NCBI GenBank assembly: GCA_021785515.1
Contig: JAJYEX010000008.1
Span: forward strand, 1-64,000
Direction: 5' to 3'
Length of the DNA: 64,000 nt
Source of the DNA: Pseudomonadota bacterium
GTDB lineage: Bacteria > Pseudomonadota > Gammaproteobacteria > Acidiferrobacterales > UBA6901
Under the pieces are notes generated by a model. It searched no databases. It was not told the origin of the DNA and saw only the letters and a list, made by a program, of their open reading frames with translations. The translations under genes were made by a program, and so were the position numbers. Shown here one piece after another: positions 55,121 to 63,929 of this stretch (position 1 is the first letter of the stretch; the number at the start of each line of letters is the position of its first letter).

Positions 55121-56311
55121 TCAGAACAGCAGCTGAAGGCCAAGGGTTTCCTGATTGTAGTTCTGCAGCGCGGGATCGATCGGATCCTGCTTGTCAAAGG
55201 AGATGCGGGCGTACTCGCCGCTGACCTTGAGCTGCTGGCCGTCGATGTAATAGTTGAAGCCGACGCTGTTCCATTTCTGGTCGTCATAACCGGACGTCAG
55301 GTTGTACTGGGATTTCTCGTGACGCAGAAAGAACTGCAGCCGGCCGACACCGATCCTGCTCGGGAACAGGTATCCGGCCTTGACGTAATAACCCTGGAGC
55401 TGCGAGGTAATCGGCAGGTTCGGGTCGGGATAGGCGCTGTTGATGGCGTTTCCAGTACTGTAGTGCATGTAAGCCGCCGACGCCGTATAGGTGCCGCTGC
55501 GAAACGGGTACTCGAAGAAGATGTCGGTTGTCCAGGCCTCGTAGTTCTTGGCGTCGGTCTGGGTCGCATAGTCGCCCCAGACGACATCCGGTTGATACTC
55601 GTAGGACGCGCCAATCGTGAGCACCTTCATGGTGCCGAGGTACGTTCCTTCGTAGCCGTATCCGTATTCGGGATCGAGCAGGCTGGCGGTTAGCCTGCCT
55701 GTCACCATCGATTCGCTCTTGGGGACACCATCACCCTGCCGTCCGTTGGATATCATGATGCGGTACTGATACATCGCGTTGTGAAGGTTGCCCCACGCGG
55801 CCACACCGGTATCACGGCTTGCGGCGAATGGGGCATAGGCAAGCACTTCGGCGCGGTCCATGGTAAGCGGACCAAAGCAATCCTCGAGATTTTCCCGGGT
55901 GAACGGCACCTTGAATTTCCCGACTATGAACTGAAGGGCGTCGTTTGCCTCGAGTGTGATGTAGGCATCCTCGTAAAACATGCTGCGGTTGTTGTATCCC
56001 TCTTCGCCGTCAACAGGCGCCTCGGTATCGACGAAAAATCCGATGTCGTTATTGTACTGTCCGCTCAGTACTATGCGGTTGCGCCGCAGGTAGAAGTTGT
56101 TCAGGCCGGCGGAATCCGTTGACGAGGTGTATCCCCGACTCTGGTACCAGGCCTGTACATAGTAGTCCAGGGTCACGTAGCTCTGTCCGGAATGCAGGGT
56201 TACTCCGGCTATCGCCGGTCGGGCAGCTGCAGCGATGACCAGAGCCCCGAGGGGCGCGATGCTGCGCCGGACCAACTTCGCCACGCGGCCTTTCTTGAAC
56301 GAATTTTTCAT
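55121..56311 (-). CDS. Outer-membrane porin, OprO/OprP-like
   Basis: A 396-residue outer-membrane beta-barrel. A signal peptide (about 35 residues, ending near PAIAG) is followed by alternating aromatic beta strands (YVTLDYYVQAWYQSRG at the start) and a terminal Phe (LGLQLLF) as barrel proteins require. The motifs NFYLRRNRIVLSGQYNNDIG and FIVGKFKVPFTRENLE are typical of phosphate-selective OprO/P-type porins. ATG 56311 is chosen because the signal peptide begins there. It is the last gene of a run with two cytochrome-associated genes, only 19 bases after the three-heme cytochrome, so it may admit anions or sulfur compounds for that system. Confidence 0.85.
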   Translation of the reverse strand: MKNSFKKGRVAKLVRRSIAPLGALVIAAAARPAIAGVTLHSGQSYVTLDYYVQAWYQSRGYTSSTDSAGLNNFYLRRNRIVLSGQYNNDIGFFVDTEAPVDGEEGYNNRSMFYEDAYITLEANDALQFIVGKFKVPFTRENLEDCFGPLTMDRAEVLAYAPFAASRDTGVAAWGNLHNAMYQYRIMISNGRQGDGVPKSESMVTGRLTASLLDPEYGYGYEGTYLGTMKVLTIGASYEYQPDVVWGDYATQTDAKNYEAWTTDIFFEYPFRSGTYTASAAYMHYSTGNAINSAYPDPNLPITSQLQGYYVKAGYLFPSRIGVGRLQFFLRHEKSQYNLTSGYDDQKWNSVGFNYYIDGQQLKVSGEYARISFDKQDPIDPALQNYNQETLGLQLLF

Positions 56312-56330: not shown

Positions 56331-56861
56331 TTATTTCTGTTGAGGCGCACTGACTTTCATGTATCCCGCCACGAGCTTGCTCACGTCTCCATTCTGGTGA
56401 CAGGATGCGCAAGCCTTCTGGGGCACCTTGAGCGGATCCGCGATCAGGCCGGCGTGTGCCAGGGATTTCCTGAGAATCCACGGACTTCCTCCGTGGCAGC
56501 CGACGCAGTCGTTATTCACCGGTTCATGATCCGTGTGCCATGGACTGTCGCTGACGGCTGGACCGCGGCCGCTGCTATGGCACTTGAAGCACGACGAAGC
56601 CCCCATTCCGCAGGCATTGGCCGCCGCGATCGGAGAGCAGGTGGCGAAGGATTCGTGAATGTTGCTGATGGCACTTGCCCCCCACCCGTTCTTGTGAACA
56701 GCTGGCATGCGGTGTGTGTGCAGGGCGGAGCGTGGCATTGGCGGCGTGGCAGACAGCAGCGACCAGACCACGGCGACGACCGTCAGGATCGTGATGCACG
56801 TAGCGTAGAACAGGATCGAGTGCGAGGCGCGTTTGAAGGTTCTGATGAAGACCTGGCTCAT
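56331..56861 (-). CDS. Membrane-anchored three-heme cytochrome c
   Basis: A 176-residue periplasmic cytochrome tethered by one N-terminal helix at about residues 16-38, reminiscent of NapC/NirT-type anchors. There are three heme c motifs: CFKCH (91), CVGCH (119) and CASCH (151), with several extra His as possible distal ligands. It probably passes electrons between the quinone pool or periplasm and an outer partner. Its start overlaps the stop of the upstream 94-residue gene by ATGA, and the porin gene follows it. The exact redox partner is unknown. Confidence 0.85.
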   Translation of the reverse strand: MSQVFIRTFKRASHSILFYATCITILTVVAVVWSLLSATPPMPRSALHTHRMPAVHKNGWGASAISNIHESFATCSPIAAANACGMGASSCFKCHSSGRGPAVSDSPWHTDHEPVNNDCVGCHGGSPWILRKSLAHAGLIADPLKVPQKACASCHQNGDVSKLVAGYMKVSAPQQK

Positions 56862-57142
56862 TTTTTCCTCCTTTTCTTGCTATGTGCTGTGGGTTCGGCA
56901 GTCCTGGAGAATGATTCGGACTGGTCGAGCCTCCGTTTTGCGGCCTCGATGTCCTTTTCCGTGGGACCCGACCCGCACATGCAGATCGGTCCCTTGCGGA
57001 AATACGGTCGGGTCCTGGTTGTGGCAGCCTTCGTCGGTGCGGCAGCAGTGGACGCCGCGGTCGCGCAGGCGGCGGGTACGGCGAGGACCAGCAGTCCAGA
57101 CGCTGCAAGGATTCGCCATGTTCGGATCGGGTTTGTGTCCAT
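56858..57142 (-). CDS. Small exported protein with a CMCGSG motif
   Basis: A 94-residue protein with a signal peptide in the first 30 residues. An Ala/Thr-rich linker leads to a short motif PICMCGSGPTEKDIEAAKRR (Cys54, Cys56) and a strongly basic tail (KKRRKK). No family is recognised. It is the first gene of the cytochrome-porin unit and is translationally coupled to the three-heme cytochrome by ATGA. A sigma-54 promoter lies 39-55 bases upstream. The Cys-X-Cys pair could bind a metal or form a redox link. Confidence 0.65.
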   Translation of the reverse strand: MDTNPIRTWRILAASGLLVLAVPAACATAASTAAAPTKAATTRTRPYFRKGPICMCGSGPTEKDIEAAKRRLDQSESFSRTAEPTAHSKKRRKK

Positions 57143-57181: not shown

Positions 57182-57197
57182 AGCACATTGCATGCCA
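57182..57197 (-). promoter_or_regulatory. Sigma-54 promoter of the cytochrome-porin unit
   Basis: Read on the minus strand the sequence is TGGCATGCAATGTGCT, with GG at 57196-57195 and GC at 57184-57183 exactly ten bases apart. This fits the -24/-12 consensus TGGCACG-N4-TTGCW. The start would be about 30 bases before the 94-residue gene. It shares 14 of 16 bases with the promoter of the rhodanese gene. Confidence 0.65.
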
Positions 57198-57293
57198 GCA
57201 GGGAGGCTACGAAAAAACAGTTAGTTAGGCGGGAATGGCCGGAGTGGGGCGTTGCATTAAGTCGCTTTTACCGGCTCTGCCGTTGCGGGGCTT

Positions 57294-58559
57294 TCAATTT
57301 GCAACAAGCCGTCGTGAGTGCCCGTTTATCGCGGGTATGGGCACGGTGAGGTTGACCAGCTGGTAACGGGCGGCCACGACCTGGGCAAAGGCCTGGCGCA
57401 GGAGGGAGAGCGTGGCCTTGTCGTAGTGCTCCGGGTGCAGAAGTTCGTGATGGAACAGGCGTTCGTAGTGCGCGCCGGGAGATACCTCGATGCGCAACCG
57501 GATCTTCGTGGCCGGGCGTGGCGCCAACGCCAGACGCGCGGCCAGCACGCTCGCGCCACCAGGCGGAATGCGCGTGTCGAAGTACTCATGGGTCAGGCGC
57601 AGGTTGACGCTTCGCCCTATGGTCTGCCGGGCGATTTCTCGGGCGTCGCGGCCGCCAGGACCGACCGCGTAAAGGGTGACGTATACCTTGGGAACCAGAT
57701 AGGTCGGAAAGTCATGTCCAATGTGGACGCTGCGGATGACCGCACGGGCCTCGGCCATGTGGTGGTCCACCCGGGTGACGCGCAGGGAGATCCGCAGGCC
57801 CTGTCTTACCATCGCCGGATCGTGGATGCCGCGCCACAGATGCCGCCGGTCGGGCATGTGGCAAGTCTGGCAGGTGACGTGCTCGTGCGCGAAGCGGCTG
57901 GCTCGCCACTCTGCATAGGTGTTCTCGAACGGCTTCCCATCCAGGCTCCGACCCCAGGGCGGAGACTGGTGGCAGGTAGCGCAGAAGCGGCTGTGCTGGA
58001 AGGCCGGTGTTGCCGTAAAACCGTCGTGCGGCAGGCCCGGGGTGTTTCCGGCCGGCATGCCCGGAGATGGTGGCGGTCCGAACCGATGTTGCCTGCGAAC
58101 ATGGCAGGCAGCGCACGTCAGTCCCTGATGGAACAGCTGTTGGCCGACGTACGCCGGTGGAGGTGTCGACGGTCTGTCCGGCCAGCCAAATTCCATCGCC
58201 GCCAGTGCCTTCTGTTCGGCCAGCGGAGCGTGGCAGCGCATGCAGCGGTTGGCTTGTGTCTGGCTCATGATGCGGAACTGCCAGAGCAAGCCAGGCCCGA
58301 TGGCGCGGCTGTGCAGGCTCGTGCGCCAGTCTTCGTACTGCTGCTGGTGGCATTCGCCGCAGGATTGCGGGGACAGGGATCCCGTGAGCGCCGAGTAGCC
58401 CTTGGGCGGCGGGCCTTCCGGGGCCAGAGGGTATATCCAGTGCTGTGCCAGGAAGCGGCTGATCGGTCCTGGCGGGGTTTTTCCGTGGCTGGCTGGCGGC
58501 GATTGCCAGGCGGCTGCTCCCGTGACCAGCACTGCCAGCACCAGGATAAGAAGTCGCAT
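57294..58559 (-). CDS. Exported five-heme cytochrome c
   Basis: A 421-residue periplasmic or surface cytochrome. A signal peptide (MRLLILVLAVLVTGAAA) is followed by five heme c motifs: CGECH (67), CMRCH (106), CAACH (149), CATCH (193) and CQTCH (230). Residues 245-421 lack Cys and look like a beta-sandwich domain. The heme arrangement resembles cytochrome c554 and related multiheme families. ATG 58559 is chosen for the signal peptide; GTG 58580 is an alternative with poor ribosome-binding-site spacing. It has its own sigma-70-like promoter and sits between the rhodanese gene and the cytochrome-porin unit. Confidence 0.85.
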   Translation of the reverse strand: MRLLILVLAVLVTGAAAWQSPPASHGKTPPGPISRFLAQHWIYPLAPEGPPPKGYSALTGSLSPQSCGECHQQQYEDWRTSLHSRAIGPGLLWQFRIMSQTQANRCMRCHAPLAEQKALAAMEFGWPDRPSTPPPAYVGQQLFHQGLTCAACHVRRQHRFGPPPSPGMPAGNTPGLPHDGFTATPAFQHSRFCATCHQSPPWGRSLDGKPFENTYAEWRASRFAHEHVTCQTCHMPDRRHLWRGIHDPAMVRQGLRISLRVTRVDHHMAEARAVIRSVHIGHDFPTYLVPKVYVTLYAVGPGGRDAREIARQTIGRSVNLRLTHEYFDTRIPPGGASVLAARLALAPRPATKIRLRIEVSPGAHYERLFHHELLHPEHYDKATLSLLRQAFAQVVAARYQLVNLTVPIPAINGHSRRLVAN

Positions 58560-58623
58560 CGGGTTGGCTGAGCCGGACACGCCTTCTTTTCTCCATGCCT
58601 CGACGATGGACTAGCAGTCCGCC

Positions 58624-58652
58624 ACTATACCACCCGCACCCACACCTGTCTG
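58624..58652 (-). promoter_or_regulatory. Sigma-70-like promoter of the five-heme cytochrome gene
   Basis: On the minus strand CAGACA (58652-58647) and TATAGT (58629-58624) are spaced by 17 bp. They lie between the terminator of the rhodanese gene and the cytochrome start. Confidence 0.4.
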
Positions 58653-58710
58653 CGCCGCATCACCCCGGTGCGGGGACGTCAGTCGCCGTTTCTGCAGCGG
58701 GAAAGAAGAT

Positions 58711-58743
58711 CCCCGGGACGGACCGGGCTAATCCGTCCCGGGG
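58711..58743 (-). terminator. Terminator of the rhodanese lipoprotein gene
   Basis: A perfect 12-bp stem, CCCCGGGACGGA (58711-58722) with TCCGTCCCGGGG (58732-58743), and a nine-base loop. On the minus strand it is followed by ATCTTCTTTCC, a T-rich tail. It directly follows the rhodanese stop codon. Confidence 0.75.
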
Positions 58744-58755
58744 CAAGGAGGAGAG

Positions 58756-60444
58756 CTATCCGCAGGGGTTGGCTGGTGCCGAACCGCCGCTTGAGGACGA
58801 GCTGCTGCTGCTTCCACCGCCCGTCTTGTACGCCTTGTCGGCATCAATGATGGCATTGCCCGTCGTGGAATAGGGGGATATGGTCGGCGGAACTTCCACG
58901 ACCGACGGGGGATTGTAGTTCAGCGAGTCCGTCGCCAGGTCCGTGCGCCACGGGGAATCCGCGGGCATGTTGAAGTTGCCGCTCATGTTCTGCGCGTAAC
59001 CGAGTTCCCCCCATTCCACCCATGCCGCGTCGTAGAACTTGACGGGGTAGCCCAGCACCAGGCCTGCGGAAATGCCCGTGACCATGGCCCGGTAGGTGGT
59101 GCGGCAGTGGGTGTAGATGACTTCTCCCGGCCTGTAGCCGATGGCATCAATTGTGACGCCGTTAGGCGGATGTTCTACGGTGCCAAGCGGGTCCGTGATG
59201 AGCTGTTGCAGCCAGGCCTTGTCGAGGTAGCCATAAGACGCATCCTTGCCGTTTACGGACCCGTCACCGTTCAGGTCACCCGGGACGGTGCTGGTGCTAT
59301 TGTGGTTGCCGAAGCTGTTGTTGGCGTACGGGTTGGAGGCCGCGCCCGGTCCGTTGTAGTAGTCGTTCTGGTAGAGCAGATCGATGTAGTTGAGGTTTAC
59401 CGCGCCGCGGATATGGCCCTCGAAAGCGACGTAACAGGGGCCGCCCGTCGATGTCACGCAGTTCGTCTGCCCAGTGGTTTGTTCCTGCACGCCGTTGTAT
59501 TCCGCGGGTGAGCGCGCATCCCAGATGAAGGCGCCACCCTGGGGCGTGTATTTGCCGAGGGCGACGGAGAGCATCTCCTGAAGGCTCGCCTGCAACGCGG
59601 TGTTGTCCACCGGAATTTCACGTACCGAGAAGGTTCCGGAACCCGGGGGCGCATCCGCCGTCGAGGAAAAATAGCCGGTGCCGGCTGTATGTACGCCGGC
59701 GCTGAAAGCCGCGTAGCCTCCGGTCTCGTTGAGGACGTTATCGATGCCACCGTCAAGAATCGCCAGGTGGGTGTGGCTCACCCCCCAGTAGCGGAACATG
59801 TACCAGCCGCGTCCGATCAGCATGTCCGCCAGGGGGCTTCCCTGGCCCATCGCAAAAACGATCATGTCCTTGGTCGGATCGATGTTGTACTCCTTCAGGA
59901 AGGCATCCATGGATGGTCCGTCGAGCACCATGCTGATCGTCGTAATCACGCCATCGTTACGCGCCATGACCCACTGCGATGGGCCAATATCGTAGGTAAA
60001 GATGTTGTTGTTGTCGTGGGCGACGTACTCCATCCCGGCAAAGCCGATGCCGCCGTTGGAAGCGACGCTGCCGCCGGAAATGCTGTAGCCGGTTTGGCAG
60101 CCTCCGGTAGCGAGGTACGCCGTGCAGCCCGCGCCGCCGGTCTGCAAGATGACCAGGTGCCCGGTGATGCCGGGCGGGCGGTTTGCCGTCCAGTTGTCTA
60201 TCCAGTGCATCAGGGTCTGGCCCGTGATCAGTCCGTTGACGTTCGCGTTGTAGTCATCCGCCGAGGTCTGGACAGCCGCGATCTGTGCGGCCGTATGCAC
60301 AACGATGCCGGTCCCGCCGTCGGTAGTGTCGTGCCCGCCGGAGCAGCCGCCGACGATAAAGAGCATCGCGGCAATTGCGGACATGGCGGTACGCCAACCG
60401 GCACTGGCGGCAGTGGGTGCCCCGCAAAAACTCTCTTTTTTCAT
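58756..60444 (-). CDS. Large lipoprotein with tandem rhodanese-like domains
   Basis: A 562-residue exported protein. A lipoprotein signal (FIVGGC, Cys34) anchors it. A degenerate rhodanese-like domain at about 90-235 (IVFAMGQGSPLADMLIGRGW) lacks a catalytic Cys. The second domain (IWDARSPAEYNG at 308-318, GHIRGAVNLNYIDLL at 344-357) carries the active loop Cys447-RTTYR. Between motif and loop is a calcium-type EF-hand loop, DLNGDGSVNGKD (390-401). The C-terminus has a run of eight Ser and ends PANPCG. It probably transfers sulfane sulfur from thiosulfate or similar donors outside the cytoplasm. ATG 60444 is preferred over the longer frame since the signal peptide starts there. A sigma-54 promoter precedes it. 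Confidence 0.85.
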   Translation of the reverse strand: MKKESFCGAPTAASAGWRTAMSAIAAMLFIVGGCSGGHDTTDGGTGIVVHTAAQIAAVQTSADDYNANVNGLITGQTLMHWIDNWTANRPPGITGHLVILQTGGAGCTAYLATGGCQTGYSISGGSVASNGGIGFAGMEYVAHDNNNIFTYDIGPSQWVMARNDGVITTISMVLDGPSMDAFLKEYNIDPTKDMIVFAMGQGSPLADMLIGRGWYMFRYWGVSHTHLAILDGGIDNVLNETGGYAAFSAGVHTAGTGYFSSTADAPPGSGTFSVREIPVDNTALQASLQEMLSVALGKYTPQGGAFIWDARSPAEYNGVQEQTTGQTNCVTSTGGPCYVAFEGHIRGAVNLNYIDLLYQNDYYNGPGAASNPYANNSFGNHNSTSTVPGDLNGDGSVNGKDASYGYLDKAWLQQLITDPLGTVEHPPNGVTIDAIGYRPGEVIYTHCRTTYRAMVTGISAGLVLGYPVKFYDAAWVEWGELGYAQNMSGNFNMPADSPWRTDLATDSLNYNPPSVVEVPPTISPYSTTGNAIIDADKAYKTGGGSSSSSSSSGGSAPANPCG

Positions 60445-60495
60445 GTCGTCCTCCACTCGGTGTAACAGACTTTTATAAATGACGTCCGCCACGCA

Positions 60496-60511
60496 AGCAG
60501 TTTGCATGCCA
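60496..60511 (-). promoter_or_regulatory. Sigma-54 promoter of the rhodanese lipoprotein gene
   Basis: On the minus strand the sequence is TGGCATGCAAACTGCT, with GG (60510-60509) and GC (60498-60497) ten bases apart. The predicted start lies about 40 bases before the ATG at 60444. Confidence 0.65.
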
Positions 60512-60583
60512 AGGTGGATTGGCGCGGGAAAACAACTGTTTAGAAAAATCACGCCAGCCTTGGCTATTGCACAATTCAGCATC

Positions 60584-60741
60584 GCCGCGTTGCGCGGCTC
60601 GGGCTCTTTCAATCTGCAATGCCGCATCTGTCTGCGACGGAAGGCAGCGTACCGGGCGGCTCATTGCAAAATCCAAGAACCAGGTCTTTGGCTGTCAGGG
60701 CATTGCGATATGCGCGCGACCTGAACTGCACCGTGCGGTGC
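60584..60741. promoter_or_regulatory. Candidate enhancer sites between divergent sigma-54 promoters
   Basis: Two perfect inverted repeats lie in the 390-base divergent gap: GCCGCG-TTG-CGCGGC at 60584-60598 and GCACCG-TG-CGGTGC at 60728-60741. Activators of sigma-54 polymerase bind such sites at a distance. The two repeats differ from each other, so the assignment is tentative. Confidence 0.3.
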
Positions 60742-60772
60742 TTTATCGCGCAAAATCAACAATCTGAACCCG

Positions 60773-60788
60773 CGGCATGGAGTTTGCT
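60773..60788 (+). promoter_or_regulatory. Sigma-54 promoter of the TusA-YeeE-TusA-DsrE unit
   Basis: CGGCATGGAGTTTGCT has GG at 60774-60775 and GC at 60786-60787 with ten bases between, and the -12 reads TTTGCT as in the consensus. The start would be near 60799, about 36 bases before the first ATG. Confidence 0.7.
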
Positions 60789-60834: not shown

Positions 60835-61185
60835 ATGAAATGTCACAAGGCATGGTTTCATCTGCCGCCGTCCTTCAGGCGCTGTTGGGCTTCACAGGGT
60901 CGGCCGGTGGCGGATTCAGGAAAGCGAGTGATACTGCCGGTGTTCGGCCCGGTCACCGTGACCGAATCGCTGAATTTCCTGGGTGTCGACTGCCTGCGTA
61001 CCAACCTGTTGACCAAGAAGGCAATGGGGTTGGCCGGATGTGGCGACGTGCTGGAAATTATCACTGACAATCCGAGCTCGGCTGAGACGATTCCGTTCAT
61101 GCTGCCGAACTACGGCTGTTTGTATCTGGCAACGATTCATGAAGAGCGGTACCGGGTCCTCTACGTGAGGAAGGTCATGGCATAG
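60835..61185 (+). CDS. TusA-like protein with altered active site
   Basis: A 116-residue protein. From residue 42 on it has the TusA/SirA fold pattern: VTESLNFLGVDCLRTNLLTK, then GDVLEIITDNPSSAETIPFM. Canonical TusA carries C-P-x-P; here the motif is Cys53-L-R-T, so the sulfur-carrying Cys is kept but both Pro are lost. The first 40 residues are unlike TusA and the real start may be later, at a GTG near residue 26. It lies 20 bases before the transporter gene. It may be a specialised sulfur carrier or an adaptor of the transporter. Confidence 0.65.
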   Translation: MKCHKAWFHLPPSFRRCWASQGRPVADSGKRVILPVFGPVTVTESLNFLGVDCLRTNLLTKKAMGLAGCGDVLEIITDNPSSAETIPFMLPNYGCLYLATIHEERYRVLYVRKVMA

Positions 61186-61205: not shown

Positions 61206-62672
61206 ATGGCGAGCACCGAGAGCGAAATGGGTGCAGCACTGAAAAATACGGAATCGGCCCAGCGCCGGCTGGAGATCAAAAACCAGATATGGGCGTTTGG
61301 GATTGTGGGATTTTTTGCGGTGATTACCGTCTGGAGCTGCGCCGTCGACGTCCGCTATCTGTACTTGGCAACCTACATATGGTTTGGACTCATCTACGGC
61401 ATGGCTCTTCAGTACGGGCGCTTTTGCATGGCGTCCGCCTTCCGCGATCTGTTCGCGGTGGGCGTGCCGCGCATGACCGTCGGTATTCTCATCGCGCTGG
61501 CGCTATTCAGCGTGGTCGCATCCGTCGTGACCGGTGCTGGCCAGAGCACTTTCCATCCGCTGCCGTACGGCTACCAGAATGTCATCGGCGGAATCCTGTT
61601 CGGGACCGGAATGGTATTCGCCGGCGGTTGTGCCTCCGGCTCACTGTACAAGAGCGGGGAGGGGACGGTGGCGTCCTGGATCGTCATTCTGTCCCTGAGT
61701 TTTTCGCAGACATGGTTCGCAATGGCGGGTGGATGGCTGAACCGCCTAGTGCCGGCATCGTGGACAAAGTCTGCGGCCGCCAAGAACCTGCCGGCGGTAC
61801 TTAATCCCACCAATGGCTGGTACAACCAGTATCTGGCAGGCTACATCTGGAACCTCCCCGCCACCACCGTGGCCGTGCTGACACACATCAAGAACCAGTT
61901 TCTGGCGGCGTTCGTCGGCGACGCGCTGATCAATACCATCGTGCCGGCGATTTTCATACTGGCGGTGGTGTACGTATTCTGGTATCGCAAATCCCACATA
62001 AAAAACATGCTGAAAGCCGGCAAAAAAGGCTGGCGAGCCGAGGTGGCCGGTTACTGGTCCATGATCGCTGCCTCGCGGCGCACCGCCATCGCCGGACTCA
62101 TTATCGGGGTGGCGGCGGGCCTGCACATGTGGGTGACCGAGGGCTTGAGGCACGTGTTCGGGGTGCTCAACGCAGGCGAACTGTTGCAGGCCATGGGCCA
62201 CACTTCGGGCCTGTCGATACAGGACACGGTCTTTGATCCCGGGTACTGGTATATCACCACCCAGGAGGCGCAGTGGTCGGGCTGGCTCCTGCATGTGCTT
62301 GGCGTGCACGACATGCGCAACATCTTCTACGGACTGCAAAACGGCGTGCCCAATCCGCTGCTCAATCCGCCGGGATGGATGTCGATATCCATCATTCTCG
62401 GGTCATCAGTAATGGCGCGGCTAAGCAACGAGTTCCGGCTCAAGCTTCCGTCCCTGGAGACTGCGATCTGGGCGCTGATTGGCGGCGCGCTTATGGGGAT
62501 CGGGGCGCGCATAGGAATAGGTTGCAACATCGGCGCCTTCTTCATTCCGGTGGCAAACGGCGACCCGTCCGGTTGGCTGTTCGGTCTCGGCCTGGGAGTG
62601 GGGGCCTACATTTGTGTGCGATTCTACGACTGGTGGATAAACCGCCGGATGGCGAAAGAAGACATATTTTAA
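61206..62672 (+). CDS. YeeE/YedE-family sulfur-compound transporter
   Basis: A 488-residue inner-membrane protein with about ten predicted helices and two internally related halves. Conserved Cys residues match the thiosulfate transporter YeeE (TsuA): Cys74 (YGRFCMASAFRD), Cys142 (FAGGCASGSLYKSGEG) and Cys440 (GIGCNIGAFF). In that family they relay thiosulfate through the membrane. The ATG 61206 follows AGGGGAGGCAGG. Flanking TusA-type genes on both sides support import of thiosulfate or sulfane sulfur for cytoplasmic carriers. Confidence 0.88.
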   Translation: MASTESEMGAALKNTESAQRRLEIKNQIWAFGIVGFFAVITVWSCAVDVRYLYLATYIWFGLIYGMALQYGRFCMASAFRDLFAVGVPRMTVGILIALALFSVVASVVTGAGQSTFHPLPYGYQNVIGGILFGTGMVFAGGCASGSLYKSGEGTVASWIVILSLSFSQTWFAMAGGWLNRLVPASWTKSAAAKNLPAVLNPTNGWYNQYLAGYIWNLPATTVAVLTHIKNQFLAAFVGDALINTIVPAIFILAVVYVFWYRKSHIKNMLKAGKKGWRAEVAGYWSMIAASRRTAIAGLIIGVAAGLHMWVTEGLRHVFGVLNAGELLQAMGHTSGLSIQDTVFDPGYWYITTQEAQWSGWLLHVLGVHDMRNIFYGLQNGVPNPLLNPPGWMSISIILGSSVMARLSNEFRLKLPSLETAIWALIGGALMGIGARIGIGCNIGAFFIPVANGDPSGWLFGLGLGVGAYICVRFYDWWINRRMAKEDIF

Positions 62673-62691: not shown

Positions 62692-62946
62692 ATGGCGGTC
62701 CAGTTCAGGAGACAATCGGAGGGCGTTTACTTTCTAGACGTCAAGGGCTACGTGTGCCCGCATCCGCAGTTATATACGAAAAAATCTCTGGAAAAAATGA
62801 AGCCGGGCGACGTGCTTGATCTGGTGTTCGATAATCCATCGTCAGCTGAATCGATAAATTCAATGTGTGAGGCGGCTGGAAACGAGATCGTAAGCAAGGT
62901 CAAGGATGCAAGTGGGGCCATGGTATGGCGCATCAAGAAGGGGTAG
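62692..62946 (+). CDS. tusA: TusA-family sulfur carrier protein
   Basis: An 84-residue sulfur carrier with the canonical Cys22-Pro-His-Pro motif (DVKGYVCPHPQLYTKKSLEK) and the following GDVLDLVFDNPSSAESI. TusA proteins accept persulfide sulfur from rhodaneses and DsrE-type proteins and pass it on. It is 19 bases after the transporter gene. YeeE and TusA are often found together. Confidence 0.92.
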   Translation: MAVQFRRQSEGVYFLDVKGYVCPHPQLYTKKSLEKMKPGDVLDLVFDNPSSAESINSMCEAAGNEIVSKVKDASGAMVWRIKKG

Positions 62947-63159: not shown

Positions 63160-63456
63160 ATGCGTCTGGGCGTAACCATCACCAGCGACCGCTTCGGCAG
63201 CTACGCAACCGGATTGCTTGCCGCAGCCTCGGCTCGCGGCTGGGAATGCCGCTGCTTCCTTACCCATACCGGAACGCGCGTGCTTCGATACAAACCGTTC
63301 TGCGACCTCGTGGAATCCGGTCGGGTATCCACCACCGTGTGTGAGCTCAGTTGGGAACGGTTTGAAGGCGGCGCACTGCCGCCGTCCGTCATAATGGGCG
63401 GACAGTACCAGAACGCCGAGCTTGTGCACCAGTGCGATAAAGTCGTGGCCTTTTAG
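63160..63456 (+). CDS. DsrE-like small sulfurtransferase-family protein
   Basis: A 98-residue protein with a Rossmann-like alpha/beta start (RLGVTITSDRFGSYATGLLA) typical of the DsrE/F fold, followed by ECRCFLTHTGTRVL. Cys occurs at several places, including CDLVESG and CDKVVAF. ATG 63160 is behind GGAGGTG. DsrE-type proteins take sulfur from TusA, so its place after tusA fits. The active Cys cannot be fixed from sequence alone. Confidence 0.6.
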   Translation: MRLGVTITSDRFGSYATGLLAAASARGWECRCFLTHTGTRVLRYKPFCDLVESGRVSTTVCELSWERFEGGALPPSVIMGGQYQNAELVHQCDKVVAF

Positions 63457-63498: not shown

Positions 63499-63747
63499 AT
63501 GAAACAGGTGCTTGTAATCGCGAAATTCGACCAGGCTGAGGCGATGCGGGTCGCGGCTGGATTAACGCTGCTGAACGACCATATCCGGATCCAGGTGATT
63601 GGCAAGCTGAAAGACAGTCAGGAGGTCGCAGAGCAAAAGGAAGTGCTGGATTTCGCGGAAGTTCCCTGTGAGGTGCTGGACGCCGCGGACCCGCTTCCCG
63701 ATATTGCGCAGAGCATTCTGACAGCTGACACAGTATTTATCCTGTGA
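63499..63747 (+). CDS. Small DsrE/DsrH-like protein
   Basis: An 82-residue protein (MKQVLVIAKFDQAEAMRVAA, then LLNDHIRIQVIGKL) with an alpha/beta order and a C-terminal ILTADTVFIL like DsrE/DsrH ends. One Cys (VPCEVLDA) is present at about residue 57. It lies in the sulfur-carrier operon and overlaps the next gene by GTGA. Family assignment is tentative. Confidence 0.5.
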   Translation: MKQVLVIAKFDQAEAMRVAAGLTLLNDHIRIQVIGKLKDSQEVAEQKEVLDFAEVPCEVLDAADPLPDIAQSILTADTVFIL

Positions 63748-63929
63748 ATCAAACCAGAACCATTCTGATCATTCATCCGGTCGCCGATGAATGCATCACG
63801 TCCACGCACAACCTGGCCGATCACCTGAAAGAAATCGGCGCGCAGGTGTGGGTGCGCGTCATGGACACGTCTTACGATGAAATGCTCGATGCGATGGAGA
63901 GGGCCGACACCATCGTGTGCTGGAGATAA
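63744..63929 (+). CDS. Small DsrE-like operon protein, 61 residues
   Basis: The start is GTG 63744, overlapping the stop of the previous gene. The product MNQTRTILIIHPVADECITS, then THNLADHLKEIGAQVWVRVM, has a beta-alpha-beta outline. Cys residues occur near 17 and at the C-terminus (VCWR). No firm family is recognised. The coupled translation suggests that it acts with the 82-residue protein, perhaps as a heteromer as in DsrEFH. Confidence 0.45.
   Translation: MNQTRTILIIHPVADECITSTHNLADHLKEIGAQVWVRVMDTSYDEMLDAMERADTIVCWR

Follow-up and report, generated by a model that had tools for sequence, protein, structure and literature searches.

Three candidate sigma-54 promoters and a linked two-component system in a gammaproteobacterial gene cluster with a probable role in sulfur and electron transfer

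The right-hand end of the window (the whole 64,000-nucleotide stretch of gammaproteobacterial DNA analysed here) raises the question of whether three sigma-54-type elements in front of three sets of genes form a single regulon and, if they do, which activator would work them. A preliminary description of this DNA had claimed -24/-12 elements with GG-N10-GC spacing at three positions, two pointing left and one right, each within about 65 bases of the first gene of a unit, and had proposed that sulfur transfer and electron transfer are jointly controlled by RpoN. All three elements were found again, with coordinates and strands exact: P1 (TGGCATGCAATGTGCT, 57182-57197, minus strand) lies 40 bp from the ATG (57142) of a gene for a small 94-aa cysteine protein, P2 (TGGCATGCAAACTGCT, 60496-60511, minus strand) lies 52 bp from the ATG of a rhodanese gene (60444), and P3 (CGGCATGGAGTTTGCT, 60773-60788, plus strand) lies 47 bp from the ATG of a tusA gene (60835). 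The -25 base of P3 is C, not T, and in P1 and P2 the -12 half is TGC preceded by a base other than T.

Sigma-54 elements and the genes behind them

To place the three elements against their background, we scored the whole window with an approximate sigma-54 weight matrix. P1, P2 and P3 were the only sites scoring at least 15, the next-best site reached 14.0, and the maximum in the reversed window was 13.7. A looser pattern allowing one mismatch matched the window 8 times against 6.2 expected, which is not significant alone; this is the point in favour of reading the matches as chance and their conservation as nothing more than the kinship of close genomes. A genome-wide scan, suggested in the preliminary description as a check and carried out as a pattern search, found 29 exact copies of the consensus TGGCAYGN5TGCW in the 3.05-Mb genome against 10 for the reversed pattern, so that the motif is indeed enriched but cannot by itself prove a regulon. 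Because this enrichment is only about 3-fold, the case rests on the position and conservation of the sites.

As for position, each of the three units named previously (cytochrome-porin, rhodanese and TusA-YeeE) does have its own element upstream, although the content of two of them had to be corrected. The unit that P1 would drive starts not with a cytochrome but with the 94-aa exported protein (56858..57142, minus strand), an open reading frame with a CMCGSG motif that gave no match in a family search and has homologs at the same place in relatives. It is followed by a membrane-anchored triheme cytochrome c (56331..56861, minus strand), recognised from three CXXCH motifs and matched weakly by Pfam cytochrome models, and by an outer-membrane porin (55121..56311, minus strand) that matches Pfam Porin_O_P and passes the curated NCBIfam porin_ExtI model (NF040900) with 326 bits against a cut-off of 150. 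Downstream of P2 lies a rhodanese-type lipoprotein (58756..60444, minus strand) that resembles ExtH and carries the invariant catalytic cysteine (CxTTxRA), with 74 bits against the ExtH model NF040901, below its cut-off of 200. The gene that comes after the rhodanese gene is that of a pentaheme cytochrome (57294..58580, minus strand; five CXXCH), which is probably served by P2 as well. Relatives of this protein include ExtKL and MccSep, a selenocytochrome of solved structure, but it lacks selenocysteine and at 52 bits stays under the cut-off of 250 of the ExtKL model NF040886.

On the other strand, the unit attributed to P3 opens with a TusA-like sulfur carrier (60835..61185, plus strand; PF01206), a YeeE/YedE-type transporter of sulfur compounds (61206..62672, plus strand; PF04143; E=3.5e-22 against the S. 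thermophila YeeE structure 6leo) and a second TusA (62692..62946, plus strand; PF01206). Three small conserved cluster proteins follow on the plus strand, two of them without a family match (63160..63456 and 63499..63747) and the third (63744..63929) also present in G001 and G010, two related genomes described below; Pfam gives no DsrE match for these small proteins. The window ends inside the cluster, and contig C22 continues with the genes of a membrane PAS histidine kinase (64219-65655), which follows the TusA-YeeE unit and the small proteins, and of an NtrC-type sigma-54 activator (about 65691-67136). The kinase has N-terminal hydrophobic segments followed by PAS, HisKA and HATPase domains, and the activator has a receiver, an AAA+ domain with GAFTGA and a Fis-type helix-turn-helix. 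The genome holds one intact rpoN gene and ten good sigma-54 activator genes.

Conservation and a recurring gene cluster

Conservation of the three sites in related genomes, which the preliminary description had named as a source of support, extends from near neighbours to dozens of wider relatives. In G001, a genome of the same genus, all three elements are kept, P1 being identical (L028:15344) and P3 reading CGGCATAAAGTTTGCT. In G010, from another family of the same order, P2 and P3 are kept, P3 in identical form (L029:5351), and the equivalent P1 site reads TGGCACGTAATATGCC. When the region between P2 and P3 is compared across these three genomes, it consists of isolated invariant blocks amid diverged intergenic sequence, at a protein identity of about 68%. 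The blocks comprise parts of both promoters, ATTGCACAAT, CTTTCAATCTGCAAT, an ATTGCAA with TCCA, and ATTGCGATATG. Part of this intergenic conservation reflects the kinship of the compared genomes.

A third relative, G002 of the same genus, has a recognisable but decayed P1 (L030:8120) within a decayed cluster (L030 8000-11200). A deletion from the middle of the rhodanese gene to the middle of the activator gene took half of the former, the TusA-YeeE unit and most of the latter, leaving a rhodanese remnant fused to the activator's last third; the enhancer sites of P1, described below, are intact.

Beyond these close relatives, a cluster of tusA-yeeE-tusA, small proteins, rhodanese lipoprotein, pentaheme cytochrome, small protein, triheme cytochrome, ExtI porin, kinase and activator can be found again in more than 50 genomes of sulfur bacteria, spread over Gamma- and Betaproteobacteria. 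A scan of named genomes with a rhodanese alignment gave 66 loci with nearly constant gene order, mostly in Thiobacillus, Thiohalobacter, Thiogranum, Thiohalomonas, Rubrivivax and other Gamma- and Betaproteobacteria, with a few in Desulfobacterota and others. At yeeE loci with the full cluster, the activator and the upstream sigma-54 sites are present wherever the contig reaches far enough, and the nine loci with yeeE homologs lacking the rhodanese, cytochrome and porin genes have neither a cluster-type activator nor upstream sigma-54 sites. In one 20-kb stretch from another genome (L075, G003), the kinase, the activator, the pentaheme cytochrome and tusA1 were the only cluster genes found.

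For a quantitative comparison, the motif was learned on 22 promoters and tested on 56 other loci (1.03 Mb). Sigma-54 sites stood before tusA at 46 of 52 loci (chance 1.4%), before the cytochrome (cytA) unit at 41 of 52 (chance 3.1%) and before the rhodanese gene at 18 of 56 (chance 1.4%), where related genomes are non-independent samples and the locus counts are not to be read as probabilities. Rhodanese genes without a sigma-54 site of their own may be read from the tusA promoter. With this independent test on 56 loci far exceeding chance, with the same sites recurring at rearranged genes, and with the invariant blocks standing isolated in diverged sequence, we give almost no weight to the reading of the three elements as chance matches preserved by kinship.

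Enhancer pairs and the linked activator

Upstream of the elements, the hexamer ATTGCA is strongly over-represented. Within 250 bp of the 22 sigma-54 sites of the discovery set it occurs 44 times against 2.8 expected, and the 56 test loci have 186 copies where 12.8 are expected, spread over 101 of 105 promoters. Its arrangement is regular: promoters of cytochrome and rhodanese units carry two copies that converge, 44 bp apart and mostly at -54/-98 as counted from the -24 element, and tusA promoters carry two in tandem, with 39-40 bp between them and positions of about -70/-109. Between enhancer and promoter, a site resembling that of IHF with 0-1 mismatches to the consensus is found in 49 of the 105 promoters against 7.1 expected, mostly at -31. 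The enhancer positions are fixed within a few bases across distant hosts.

The three promoters of the window follow this arrangement, with predicted enhancer sites at 53/108 (P1), 54/109 (P2) and 71/110 bp (P3) from the -24 element. For P1, the promoter-proximal site GTTGCATTAAGTC (57251..57263, plus strand) lies in a footprint, AATGCAACGC, that is invariant in the present genome, G001 and G002, as is the distal site GTTGCAAATTGAA itself (57293..57305, minus strand). For P2, the proximal site ATTGCACAATTCA (60566..60578, plus strand) and the distal site ATTGCAGATTGAA (60608..60620, minus strand) fall in two of the blocks invariant in the three genomes compared above, ATTGCACAAT and CTTTCAATCTGCAAT respectively. 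The spacing within these two pairs is 55 bp, one helical turn more than the common 44 bp. P3 has both predicted sites on the plus strand, the distal one ATTGCAAAATCCA at 60663..60675 and the proximal one ATTGCGATATGCG at 60702..60714, the latter in a third block invariant in those same genomes, ATTGCGATATG. Candidate IHF-like sites, again judged against that consensus, lie 30 bp from the -24 element of P1 (TAACTAACTGTTT, 57215..57227, minus strand; 2 mismatches, position conserved across the cluster family) and 31 bp from that of P2 (TAAACAGTTGTTT, 60530..60542, minus strand; 1 mismatch), and a possible one accompanies P3 at an unusual position (AATCAACAATCTG, 60754..60766, plus strand; 1 mismatch).

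Elsewhere in the genome, 27 further consensus sigma-54 sites all lack ATTGCA pairs at these characteristic positions. The one at C10:182986-183001 (L161), which lies before a response-regulator gene, is a possible extra member of the regulon, with just one ATTGCAAT palindrome located 46 bp farther upstream. On contigs C3 and C13 (L150, L167), two homocitrate-synthase-like (NifV-type) genes have sigma-54 sites in front of them, which suggests sigma-54 control of nitrogen fixation; some of these further sites thus probably serve nitrogen control.

With ten good activator genes in the genome, P1-P3 could be real sigma-54 promoters that are driven by one of the other nine, in which case the neighbouring pair would have other targets and ATTGCA would bind a different factor. 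We consider this very unlikely, since in dozens of genomes the neighbouring activator is part of the cluster and the ATTGCA pairs are confined to cluster promoters. The protein itself points the same way: 47 cluster activators form one group in the tree (support 0.84) with a near-invariant DNA-reading helix, DKSTLWRKIKRY, and their sister group consists of the activators of Desulfobacterota clusters (support of the joint clade 1.0), which have a different helix and lack ATTGCA at the sigma-54 site. Three such Desulfobacterota loci (L141, L142, L143) have yeeE-kinase-activator-rhodanese clusters with the sister-clade activator, with a porin in L141 and L142; in these last two a sigma-54 site stands before the rhodanese gene, yet ATTGCA is absent there.

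Taken together, the comparisons of sequence argue that the three elements are very probably the sigma-54 promoters of one dedicated regulon with a linked activator. The initial proposal that RpoN governs the sulfur-transfer units and the electron-transfer units together is thus strongly supported by comparative evidence, to which the window's edge adds a cognate kinase/activator pair. The sites, their conservation and fixed spacing, the gene linkage and the phylogeny are established by comparison, and from them we infer how the switch would operate. The membrane histidine kinase would sense a signal, probably related to sulfur or redox state, and phosphorylate the neighbouring NtrC-type activator, which would then bind the ATTGCA-core pairs 53-110 bp upstream of the -24 element. 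A bend by an IHF-like protein would probably deliver the bound activator to the sigma-54 polymerase, where its GAFTGA-bearing AAA+ domain would open the promoter. Transcription from P1 would yield the small protein, triheme cytochrome and porin, that from P2 the rhodanese lipoprotein and pentaheme cytochrome, and that from P3 tusA-yeeE-tusA with the small proteins, possibly running on through the kinase and activator genes.

Relation to known systems and possible function

A sigma-54 two-component system of a sulfur cluster has a precedent in TspS/TspR, which belongs to the sox-II cluster of Acidithiobacillus caldus (PMC6335251) and had been invoked in support of the present proposal. As an analogy the parallel holds, since in both cases a kinase and an NtrC-type sigma-54 activator are encoded beside a sulfur-metabolism cluster; membership in the same system does not. 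If the cluster pair were an orthologue of TspS/TspR (or TcsS/TcsR), a known sigma-54 regulator of thiosulfate oxidation, the shared REC-AAA-Fis plus kinase architecture and the general theme (PMC6335251, PMC12194929) would be accounted for. However, TspS/TspR targets sox and its published enhancer, TGTCCCAAATGGGACA (PMC6335251), differs from the ATTGCA pairs found here; it has no exact match in the present genome, but G082 and G227 have it next to an activator and sox-like genes. Taking that activator as a stand-in for TspR, we found the cluster activator to be 39-40% identical to sox-II-linked activators, which is not above the paralogs within its own genome. The stand-in groups elsewhere in the tree and reads SRKQLRTKMKN in its recognition helix, so the identification of the cluster activator as TspR was rejected. 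G082 moreover contains both regulators, its own copy of the cluster including an activator 58% identical to the present one. In the present genome sox is unlinked to any activator: the search for sox-II linkage gave only SoxY at C11:27 kb, with the nearest activator 81 kb away. Orthology with TspS/TspR is on these grounds extremely unlikely.

The gene content of the dedicated regulon brings two other systems into view. Like extHIJKL of Geobacter sulfurreducens (PMC6148476, PMC5877670), the cluster combines a rhodanese lipoprotein, an ExtI porin, a small exported protein and a pentaheme cytochrome; it differs in that the rhodanese and the cytochrome fall under the curated ExtH and ExtKL cut-offs, in the lack of selenocysteine, and in its linkage with yeeE-tusA and with a sigma-54 two-component system, an association that we did not find reported for ext in the open-access literature. 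With the YTD cluster (yedE-tusA-dsrE-chp), proposed for sulfur disproportionation in the parts of PMC12998232 and PMC13047784 available to us, it shares a YeeE/YedE transporter encoded beside TusA and a run of two or three small proteins that are conserved, whereas here the small proteins are not identified as DsrE and the hosts are Gamma- and Betaproteobacteria. Those same parts describe no regulator of YTD, and as far as the accessible portions of the cited literature go, neither YTD nor ext has been given a dedicated activator.

Two further systems show related wiring. According to the accessible part of PMC5744179, the thiocyanate dehydrogenase operon of Thioalkalivibrio is likewise a sulfur-compound operon with an adjacent kinase and a sigma-54 Fis-family activator, though with other enzymes and a GAF-domain kinase; no enhancer is given there. 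Desulfurivibrio dismutans AMeS2 (PMC12142623; L142) combines YeeE, rhodanese lipoprotein, porin and kinase with an activator of the sister clade, and its rhodanese gene is preceded by a sigma-54 site, but the activator is 44% identical with another recognition helix, and ATTGCA is absent from the 250 bp upstream. The text of PMC12142623 does not mention the histidine kinase; a similar role was proposed there for the colocalised Desulfurivibrio YeeE, rhodaneses and porin.

By analogy with ExtHIJKL and with YeeE-TusA/YTD, the cluster probably serves to bind sulfur or electrons at the outer membrane and hand them on, while YeeE imports sulfur to TusA, the products forming what would be an ExtH/I/KL-like outer-membrane sulfur/electron conduit coupled to a YeeE-TusA inner-membrane import route. 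Taken alone, a sulfur-conduit function seems moderately probable to us. The same Ext resemblances could indicate that the regulon is real and its products mainly handle selenium or tellurium oxyanions, or serve metal or electrode respiration, rather than sulfur: the porin is an ExtI equivalog, and the rhodanese is similar to ExtH and the cytochrome to ExtKL. Selenite and tellurite are reduced less well once extI is lost, and metal reduction in Geobacter draws on extHIJKL (PMC5877670, PMC6148476). Two TusA proteins, a YeeE-type transporter and a rhodanese in one cluster, together with a cytochrome that lacks selenocysteine, make such a role unlikely in our estimation. The hosts also speak against it, as they include Thiobacillus, Thiohalobacter, Thiogranum and Desulfurivibrio, all known sulfur bacteria.

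In the sulfur reading, the comparison bears on the way sulfur bacteria acquire extracellular sulfur and activate the genes for it: it supplies a concrete regulator, with a set of promoters and an enhancer code, in more than 50 genomes, that of the cultured Thiohalobacter thiocyanaticus among them. No description of this regulon came up in the open-access literature searched. Its inducer is directly testable, and therefore so is the cluster's likely substrate. Only tentatively, we suggest that a sigma-54 two-component switch of Gamma- and Betaproteobacteria, with a sister system in Desulfobacterota, might control, with an unusually rigid enhancer-IHF-promoter geometry, a hybrid ExtH/I/KL-YeeE-TusA machine that gives cells access across the outer membrane to solid or polymeric sulfur outside them. 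In the present genome, the first TusA (60835-61185) has CLRT in place of the CPRP sulfur-carrier motif of its relatives, with the cysteine kept.
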